NCBI GenBank assembly: GCA_008933015.1
Contig: WBXH01000003.1
Span: 1 to 50,368, forward strand
Reading direction: 5' to 3'
Source of the DNA: Verrucomicrobiota bacterium
GTDB taxonomy: Bacteria > Verrucomicrobiota > Verrucomicrobiia > Chthoniobacterales > UBA6821
Length of the DNA: 50,368 nucleotides
Shown here: positions 40,931-43,492 of the stretch, in pieces
Layout of the letters: each line of letters begins with the position of its first letter
How positions within the stretch are numbered: position 1 is the stretch's first letter
Translations under genes and position numbers: made by a program
Notes under the pieces: generated by a model
Databases searched by the model: none
Told to the model about the DNA's origin: nothing
The model's input: only the letters and a program-made list of their open reading frames with translations

Positions 40931-41887
40931 TCAGGAAATCTTTTGGGGAACCGTGAAGGAATAGAGCACCTCGCCCGTTCCAGCAATCAACCGCACATCC
41001 ATCGCCTCGGGTTTGAGAGAAGCCGCCATAAAACCGGGATGAGACATTGAATATTTTGATTGTGGCGTCGCACCAACCGGACGGACCGTGGAACCAGCGC
41101 CCACACAGAACATGTTAACCCCACCAGCCTGTAAATGCTGAAGATCATGATCGTGTCCGCAAATGTAGGCCTGGACCCCATACTTGGAGAGTAATGGTAG
41201 CAATTGATCAACCAACTCCGGCGTATCCCCATGTTCTCCGCCCGAGTAGATGGGATGGTGACCGAACACTATCTTCCAAGGAGCTTTTGAAGCAGCAAGT
41301 TGTTGCTCGATCCAAGCTAGTTGCTTGCCACAGTCCTGGGAGAGGATTTCCTTGCCCATGAGTTTGTCATGGGCGTATTTGGCAACGAAGGGATTAGTAT
41401 CGATATAGATCATATCGACATCACTGCCACCAGGCACCTGTTCGGTCCTCTGATAATAGCGGGATGGCATACTCCAGCGCGGACTTTTCTGACAATAATC
41501 GATCTGAGCCTTACAGTTGCCACGGTAGTCGTGGTTTCCGAGGATCAAGCGCCAAGGAACCTGCAGCGAGGAGGCCGTGTAGACATCCTCAAAGGAAGCC
41601 TTGAATTGAGGGTCATCTGCGGACGAAACACCGAAATCATAGAAATTATCCCCCACTGATACAATGAAGGGAGCCATGATCTGCGAGGCAGCAAGTCCCA
41701 TCTGGCGCGCCACATCGAGTTGATCTTTCTGGCCTTTCCTTCCCCAGTCACCGACAACGATGAAGTTGAGCCCCAGAGAGGAGGTCTCGGCAGCGAAGAG
41801 GCCCCTTGTCAGAAGCGGCCCAGAGAGAGCCACCTGGGCGGTAGCTGCAAAAAGTGTTCTAACAAAGTCCCTGCGGGTGGCGCTCAT
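40931..41887 (-). CDS. metallophosphoesterase, purple-acid-phosphatase type, Tat-exported
   Basis: 318 residues from the ATG at 41887 (frame open to 42073 through the tRNA). The N-terminus MSATRRDFVRTLFAATAQVA contains a twin-arginine-like signal (RRDFV). All metal-binding motifs of the calcineurin-like fold are present: VVGDWG, VGDNFYDFG, LGNHDY, FGHHPIYSGG and ICGHDHDLQ. GNHDYRGN and FYDFGV resemble tartrate-resistant (type 5) acid phosphatase. It would release phosphate from organic esters in the periplasm, complementing the pst operon. It follows tRNA-Gln by 72 bases. Confidence 0.88.
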   Translation of the reverse strand: MSATRRDFVRTLFAATAQVALSGPLLTRGLFAAETSSLGLNFIVVGDWGRKGQKDQLDVARQMGLAASQIMAPFIVSVGDNFYDFGVSSADDPQFKASFEDVYTASSLQVPWRLILGNHDYRGNCKAQIDYCQKSPRWSMPSRYYQRTEQVPGGSDVDMIYIDTNPFVAKYAHDKLMGKEILSQDCGKQLAWIEQQLAASKAPWKIVFGHHPIYSGGEHGDTPELVDQLLPLLSKYGVQAYICGHDHDLQHLQAGGVNMFCVGAGSTVRPVGATPQSKYSMSHPGFMAASLKPEAMDVRLIAGTGEVLYSFTVPQKIS

Positions 41888-41959
41888 TGTGTTCTGATTG
41901 TTTCCGAGTCTTGTTACCCTCTGATTAAGGGGGCTTCCAGAAAATCTACTCAATAAAAG

Positions 41960-42033
41960 TGGCTGCCCCGCATGGATTCGAACCATGAATAAATCCTCCA
42001 AAGGGACCTGTGTTACCGTTACACTACAGGGCA
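41960..42033 (-). tRNA. tRNA-Gln (anticodon TTG)
   Basis: Cloverleaf on the minus strand: acceptor TGCCCTG/CGGGGCA (one G-T), D-arm GTGT/ACAC with loop AACGGTA, anticodon stem GGTCC/GGATT with loop CTTTGGA giving TTG (reads CAA), and T-arm CATGG/CCATG with loop TTCGAAT. Discriminator G is followed by an encoded CCA, unlike the tRNA-Arg at the other end of the window. Confidence 0.95.
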
Positions 42034-42044
42034 ATTGAACTCTG

Positions 42045-42073
42045 TTTTTATTGCCTGAACGTTTCCGGGGCAA
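42045..42073 (-). promoter_or_regulatory. candidate promoter for tRNA-Gln
   Basis: On the minus strand TTGCCC (42068-42073) and TAAAAA (42045-42050) are exactly 17 bases apart, and the tRNA 5' end lies 11 bases downstream of the -10. Both boxes match 4 of 6 consensus bases. Confidence 0.4.
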
Positions 42074-42169: not shown

Positions 42170-43492
42170 ATGACAATGAAACTTCGTAATCGGCTGATCG
42201 CTCTGGTCTGCCTATTCCTCTTCCTCGCACTTGGAGCCTTCCTGCTCCTGACCTCCTCAACAAGAAAACCTTTTGCCATCATCCTGTTTGTGGGGGACAA
42301 CATCACCTCTCCGGTTCTGGGCGCGACCAGGATTTTCAATGGCGGTGCCGAGGCTCGACTGCAAATGGAGGAACTCCCCTACTCCGCCCTGAGTCGCAAT
42401 GCGGCCAATGATTTCTCGATCCCAGACACGGCCTCCGCCTCTACGCAGATATCTGCAGGAAGACGTGTGAACAAAGGGAGTCTCTGCATCGACACCGCGG
42501 GCCTAAAACTCTCCTCCCTGCTTGAGCTCGCCACACTGAAAGGTCGCGCCACCGGCCTGATCACCACTGGTGAAATCACCGGAACAACAGCGGCCAGTTA
42601 TTACGCCAAGACACTTAGCGGGGAGAATCGCTCGGATCTGGCGCTTCAGTTTTGCTCTCATCCCCCGTTTGACTTCGTGGCGGGTGGAGGATCACTTGAT
42701 TTTGAATCACCTGAAGCAACCTCTACCAATCTCCCCCCATCAGTTGACACGAATTCTTCCTCACAAGTCGTTGCAGGAAGTCCACTGAAGAAAATGAAGG
42801 ATCACGGCGTCTCGGTTCTTCATTCAGTCGCTGAGCTTGAGAAACAACCTTTTTGGAAAAAAAACCCTCTCCTTGCACTTCTTTCCCCGGGGCCTCTTTC
42901 CCCGCTTTCCGCTACTGGAAGCACAGAGGGCGATCCCAGTGCCCCCTCGCTCTCCGATCTTGTCAGGATAGCAATCCGTAACCTTCAATCTTATGGACAA
43001 GGATATCTACTTGTCGTCGATGATCCGATGATCGGCCAAGCCGCACGCTCAAACGATGCCGAAACTATGTTTCAGAGAATTCTGGCTTTCGATAAGGCCA
43101 TCTCGACAGCACGGCGGTACGCCGGGGAAAAAGCGTTGGTGGTGGTCACCGGTAGGGAAACTTTGGGAGGGCTTCAACTCAGTGGTTATCCCTTCCTGAG
43201 GGACAAAGGAGTGGCTGTTCTAGCCATCAACAACCAGGGCTACCCCTCTCTGAATTGGTCAACGGGCCCGGGATTTGATCCCGACAAAGGGGCTGATCTC
43301 TCCCACTCCAAGAAAACTTTTGGAACGAATAGCTCGGTGGGGATCCTCCTTCAACCCTCTGCCACAAAGCTTCCGTCTGGGTTAGGTGTTGGAGGTGATG
43401 TGCTGACTCTGGGAGTCGGTCCCGGCTCGGAAAATCTCCATGGTTTTCAAGATCTCACACAAGTTCATCGGTTGATCCTAAACGAATTGTAA
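42170..43492 (+). CDS. alkaline phosphatase-fold protein, metal ligands largely lost
   Basis: 440 residues. An N-terminal membrane segment (about 8-29) is followed by an alkaline phosphatase domain recognised by IILFVGDNI (Asp43 = E. coli PhoA Asp51), PDTASAST (nucleophile position Thr87), GLITTGEITGTTAAS, NDAETMFQRILAFDKAISTARRY and a C-terminal VLTLGVGPGSENLHG. The metal-ligand motifs are degraded: SIDxxxH reads MIGQAAR (289-293), TADHETGG reads TGRETLGG (327-334), and the last HTG motif reads LGV. Most zinc ligands are therefore gone, so phosphatase activity is unlikely. It is anchored in the envelope and diverges from tRNA-Gln and the active metallophosphatase. Confidence 0.82.
   Translation: MTMKLRNRLIALVCLFLFLALGAFLLLTSSTRKPFAIILFVGDNITSPVLGATRIFNGGAEARLQMEELPYSALSRNAANDFSIPDTASASTQISAGRRVNKGSLCIDTAGLKLSSLLELATLKGRATGLITTGEITGTTAASYYAKTLSGENRSDLALQFCSHPPFDFVAGGGSLDFESPEATSTNLPPSVDTNSSSQVVAGSPLKKMKDHGVSVLHSVAELEKQPFWKKNPLLALLSPGPLSPLSATGSTEGDPSAPSLSDLVRIAIRNLQSYGQGYLLVVDDPMIGQAARSNDAETMFQRILAFDKAISTARRYAGEKALVVVTGRETLGGLQLSGYPFLRDKGVAVLAINNQGYPSLNWSTGPGFDPDKGADLSHSKKTFGTNSSVGILLQPSATKLPSGLGVGGDVLTLGVGPGSENLHGFQDLTQVHRLILNEL

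Follow-up and report, generated by a model that had tools for sequence, protein, structure and literature searches.

A conserved alkaline phosphatase-fold pseudoenzyme, probably a membrane-anchored binding or scaffold protein, in an order of Verrucomicrobiota

RESULTS

The locus and the fold of the encoded protein

The window, that is, the whole 50,368-nucleotide stretch of DNA analysed here, carries on its forward strand a gene for a protein of the alkaline phosphatase family (PF00245), recognized from its open reading frame, its PF00245 match, its orthologues and its predicted fold. The gene and its immediate neighbours are arranged as follows.

40931 to 41887, minus strand: metallophosphatase with a twin-arginine-like signal
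41960 to 42033, minus strand: tRNA-Gln (ttg), divergently oriented and retained beside the gene in several families
42170 to 43492, plus strand: pseudo-alkaline phosphatase gene, 440 aa
43555 to 46518, minus strand: convergently placed gene for a 987-aa protein that has a long coiled coil and, at its C-terminus, TPR repeats

The PF00245 match spans residues 37–436 (E 2.8e-35; 122.5 bits against a cut-off of 24.4), and the gene is the sole PF00245 gene found in its genome, a 1.42 Mb draft in 114 contigs that is 84.7% complete. A search of NCBIfam returned no named family above cut-off for the protein, and a scan of the locus for promoters and terminators found nothing beyond chance. An AlphaFold2 model of the protein, with 46 orthologues as input, reached a pLDDT of 77.5 and a pTM of 0.77, with low confidence at residues 335–389; a model of one orthologue, built from 56 alignment rows, reached 85.0 and 0.84. 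In structure comparison with human TNAP the two models gave Z scores of 43.7 and 46.0 respectively, and the model of the window protein gave 42–43 against E. coli PhoA. Its rmsd to alkaline phosphatases is approximately 2–3 Å over about 325 residues, and for both models the top 50 structural matches are all alkaline phosphatases. Membership of PF00245, proposed in a preliminary description of the locus, is hence borne out by both homology and fold.

Loss of the nucleophile, the arginine and both zinc sites

Residue equivalences were taken from an alignment of the window protein with E. coli PhoA, whose numbering is used below wherever positions are compared. The PhoA sequence that served as yardstick was checked by its length (449) and by the presence of the catalytic residues at their known numbers. 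The following positions, all on the plus strand, are relevant to catalysis.

42296 to 42298, plus strand: Asp43, equivalent to PhoA Asp51 (alignment); kept, Asp or Glu in 46/46 orthologues
42428 to 42430, plus strand: Thr87, at the nucleophile position of PhoA Ser102 (alignment)
42581 to 42589, plus strand: Gly138-Thr139-Thr140, equivalent to PhoA Asp153 to Thr155, with Thr140 at a kept magnesium-ligand position
43019 to 43021, plus strand: Asp284, equivalent to the magnesium ligand PhoA Glu322; Asp in 42/46 orthologues
43034 to 43048, plus strand: Gly289 to Arg293, equivalent to PhoA Asp327 and His331; zinc-1 ligands lost
43154 to 43159, plus strand: Arg329-Glu330, equivalent to PhoA Asp369-His370; zinc-2 ligands lost
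43385 to 43387, plus strand: Gly406, equivalent to PhoA His412; zinc-1 ligand lost, His in 0/46 orthologues

The residue assignments of the preliminary description agree with this alignment. Neither Ser102 nor Arg166 of the active enzyme is present in the window protein, their places being taken by Thr87 and Gly151. Among the 46 orthologues position 102 is variable (A 16, T 9, S 8, Q 5, D 3 and others) and position 166 is never Arg. Zinc site 1 (Asp327, His331, His412) is lost, with at most one of its ligands kept in any orthologue, and zinc site 2 (Asp51, Asp369, His370) retains Asp43 while Arg329 and Glu330 replace the Asp-His pair. Asp327 and His331 are each found in 2/46 orthologues, Asp369 in 4/46 and His370 in 3/46; of the five zinc ligands beyond Asp51, any one orthologue retains one at most. 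Position 369 is instead basic in most (K 19 and R 15 of 46). The ligands of the magnesium site, Asp51, Thr155 and Glu322, appear from the alignment to be kept as Asp43, Thr140 and Asp284, the change of Glu to Asp being conservative. This set occurs in D/E, S/T, D/E form in 36/46 orthologues, some family members having Tyr or Asn at position 322, and the D101 position is kept in 45/46. The earlier claim that ligands had been lost at all zinc and magnesium sites is thus upheld for both zinc sites, apart from the shared Asp51, but not for the magnesium site.

In a comparison with 24 active phosphatases, the family's changes at positions with 90% or higher conservation among the enzymes fell mainly on catalytic residues or their immediate neighbours, whereas the fold glycines and the D101 position were retained. 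The mean information of sixteen pocket positions is 4.19 bits in the active enzymes and 2.59 bits in the family, for which the average over the protein is 2.58 bits. No column with at least 90% conservation in the family is a His, nor, the membrane helix aside, a Cys or a Ser.

Distribution, selection and phylogeny

Homologues of the window protein were found in 49 of 58 relatives. A profile search of the order placed the gene in 175/213 genomes, in 100 of the 112 good ones and in 36/45 genera, almost always as one copy per genome; the true count lies slightly below 175/213, since lower-scoring matches in three genomes (G494–G496) are intact phosphatases. These matches, with their intermediate scores, had been considered as transitional forms and were rejected as such, all three genomes carrying intact phosphatases. 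One genome, G549, is exceptional in having two full-length degenerate copies (L154, L161). Two reduced 0.9 Mb genomes lack the gene, as do those genomes of families f2 and f5 that were sampled. In a phylum-wide comparison the profile score falls sharply outside the order with two exceptions, L072 and L073, which come from other families of the class and are even more degenerate, with Asn or Pro in place of Asp51.

The ligand loss first noted in a single protein is consistent across the order, in the 46 orthologues, and extends to these two outlying members of the class. This consistent absence of catalytic residues is accompanied by strong purifying selection, with dN/dS values of 0.05–0.18 in 11 close pairs, so that two of the properties expected of a pseudoenzyme were found. 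A maximum-likelihood tree of 71 rows groups the degenerate proteins in a single clade (support 97/86), and intact enzymes from the same order (L057–L059) are its neighbours. Most families of the order form groups in the tree, which fits vertical inheritance.

A second odd PF00245 subgroup was also seen, consisting of L061:1304-2647, L063:1039-2373 and L163 (in G473). Its members retain Ser102, Arg166, Asp51, Glu322, Asp327 and Asp369, with the zinc histidines 331, 370 and 412 replaced by Asn, Ser and Asp; judged by these residues, they may be active phosphatases using metals other than zinc.

The N-terminal anchor and the crown-like segment

Two further regions of the protein are conserved.

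42176 to 42256, plus strand: N-terminal transmembrane anchor, residues 3–29 (model helix, orthologue invariance)
43172 to 43276, plus strand: crown-like segment, residues 335–369, GYPF..DKG...PSL.WSTGPG (aligned with the part of TNAP that lies between its metal motifs)

All 56 orthologues have Arg6 and Asn7, and residues 3–60 are free of deletions, so that helix and linker are without gaps throughout. The N-termini of active sister proteins are signal-peptide-like, unlike the anchor of the family, which was called uncleaved by eye rather than with a signal-peptide predictor. Following the positive-inside rule, the domain would face the periplasm, and the linker to the anchor would be short, about six residues.

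The crown-like segment is poorly modelled as a monomer and is among the best conserved stretches of the family (approximately 3.1 bits). Active sister proteins have the same segment, so its conservation may be structural, and it was dropped as a strong argument for a newly conserved feature. Six residues, Arg126, Glu298, Asp345, Phe35, Gly278 and Asp284, are 93 to 100% conserved in the family and new relative to six active sisters, which have Trp at 126, Lys at 298, Thr, Leu or Ile at 345 and Glu at 284. Arg126, Glu298 and Asp345 are the new charged invariants. A comparison of N-terminal with C-terminal conservation at strand edges gave a weak contrast in the expected direction, which 4.4% of circular shifts also reach.

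Gene neighbourhood

In the window the gene does lie opposite a metallophosphatase, as the preliminary description had it; a tRNA-Gln gene stands between the two, however, and the pairing is absent from the other loci compared, so the metallophosphatase is not regarded as part of the system. Its listed open reading frame (40931–42073, minus strand) begins at a TTG beyond the tRNA-Gln gene and runs through it; the true start is likely the ATG at 41887, which would give the twin-arginine-like start MSATRRDFVRTLF.

Forty-one loci were clustered for comparison of their neighbourhoods. In 13 loci from four families the divergent tRNA-Gln gene is the immediate upstream neighbour. The gene for the coiled-coil/TPR protein is common to the genus and one genome of the sister genus. 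In three other families of the order the gene is divergently adjoined by gpmI (L107, L108, L113, L114, L117, L119, L122, L130), whose product, cofactor-independent phosphoglycerate mutase, likewise belongs to the alkaline phosphatase superfamily, and rpoN stands beside the gene in some loci. No neighbour is constant across the order in the 41 loci, which speaks against an operon partner, and gene neighbourhood was rejected as a clue to function. No phosphate-uptake or Pho-regulon gene was present among the annotated neighbours.

DISCUSSION

Interpretation and alternatives

The protein is likely a vertically inherited pseudoenzyme with an uncleaved membrane anchor, its enzymatic role having probably given way to one in binding or scaffolding. 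An alkaline phosphatase in an ancestor of the order would have lost its nucleophile, its phosphate-gripping arginine and both zinc sites, and its N-terminus would have turned into an uncleaved membrane anchor. The domain would then be held near the outer face of the inner membrane, presumably in the periplasm and, by analogy with other alkaline phosphatases, as a dimer, with one structural magnesium or calcium ion perhaps remaining at the former M3 site. Its job could be that of a subunit for binding or scaffolding, which grips a partner protein or ligand through its anchor, through the edge of the sheet nearest the membrane and perhaps through the crown-like segment. The non-catalytic, membrane-anchored role suggested in the preliminary description is supported by the clade-wide loss, the strong purifying selection and a helix and linker that, as read from the sequences, are conserved and gap-free. 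The same description left binding and sensing side by side. Only a few residues would lie on the cytoplasmic side, so the protein should not signal inward by itself and could do so only through a partner; binding or scaffolding is accordingly the likelier of the two roles. A more specific proposal is put forward tentatively, namely that the dead dimer, a core protein throughout the order that is fixed to the outer face of the inner membrane by its paired conserved helices, might be an obligatory scaffold or assembly factor of an envelope complex specific to this order of Verrucomicrobiota.

Retained activity would call for a hydrolase or transferase that uses a single metal at Asp43/Thr140/Asp284 and water as the nucleophile. 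The joint presence of D/E51, T/S155 and D/E322 in 36/46 orthologues, together with the near-invariant D101, speaks for such an enzyme. However, the nucleophile position and that of Arg166 vary freely, conservation of the pocket is no more than average, position 322 is Tyr or Asn in some members, the class-level outliers have exchanged Asp51 for Asn or Pro, and none of the columns with at least 90% conservation is, membrane helix aside, a His, Cys or Ser, which makes continued catalysis decidedly unlikely. The old pocket might alternatively serve as a decoy or sponge, still capturing phosphate esters or another small ligand and passing them to a transporter or reporting phosphate status, a role in keeping with the persistence of Asp101 and the magnesium site and with the basic residue at position 369 in most orthologues. 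It is nonetheless unlikely, given that the phosphate-holding Arg166 and both zinc sites have gone clade-wide and that the annotated neighbours include no gene for phosphate uptake or of the Pho regulon.

Two explanations would deny that a functional pseudoenzyme exists at all. Shifted residues could supply the metal ligands and have been misaligned, and the low confidence with which residues 335–389 were modelled gives this some room. The motifs that flank the lost ligands are, however, common to intact sisters of the same order (TTDHNTGGL in the sisters against VTGRETLGGL in the window protein, and HTGGDV against GVGGDV), so the register there is hard to shift. There being also no His among the family columns at least 90% conserved, misalignment is very improbable. 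That the gene is a decaying pseudogene or an assembly artefact, as its lost catalytic residues and its origin in a draft of 114 contigs might suggest, can practically be dismissed: open frames occur in most genomes of the order, the low dN/dS and gap-free N-terminus are those of a maintained gene, and a 91% identical copy is present in an independent genome (G005). The pseudoenzyme reading with a binding or scaffold role is accordingly preferred.

Implications for phosphorus physiology

A nearly universal single-copy gene in an order of soil and freshwater bacteria points to a useful role in which catalysis is not required. In this order the annotation of alkaline phosphatase, itself a textbook enzyme, can rest on the dead protein, so that phosphorus physiology may be misread. 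The degenerate protein is the sole PF00245 match in 33 of the 46 relatives with any PF00245 match. Low-phosphorus adaptation of freshwater Verrucomicrobia has been inferred partly from annotated phoA/alkaline phosphatase genes (PMC5615132, PMC5673642), and given the 33/46 figure such inferences of phosphorus scavenging from annotation need checking. In the genome of the window (G000) neither PhoD (PF09423) nor PhoX (PF05787) was matched, so that this draft, 85% complete, yielded no standard alkaline phosphatase.

Comparison with known systems

Pseudoenzymes as such are well known (PMC10211241). The literature searched, in which many subscription journals are not represented, contained no account of a pseudoenzyme family with the PF00245 fold. 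The iRhom pseudoproteases (PMC3149277) and bacterial pseudokinases (PMC12599244) present a similar case, in which an enzyme fold remains under selection after catalysis has been lost. The iRhoms offer the further likeness of a membrane-bound regulatory role, although the folds of both groups differ from that of the present family.

The closest comparison is with the PF00245 enzymes themselves, PhoA and the mammalian TNAP, placental and intestinal enzymes. The family shares with them the fold over residues 34–440, Asp51, Asp101, the GGG motif and other structural positions, along with the magnesium-site ligands and a crown-like segment resembling that of the mammalian enzymes. Unlike these enzymes, it has no conserved Ser102 or Arg166 and neither zinc site, and in place of their signal peptide or lipid/GPI anchor it has an uncleaved-looking N-terminal helix with an invariant Arg-Asn pair. 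Intact phosphatases from within the order (L057, L058, L059, L156, L157, L159), which include its nearest relatives in the tree (L057–L059), have the crown-like segment and C-terminal motifs in common with the family but, unlike it, possess all of the catalytic residues.
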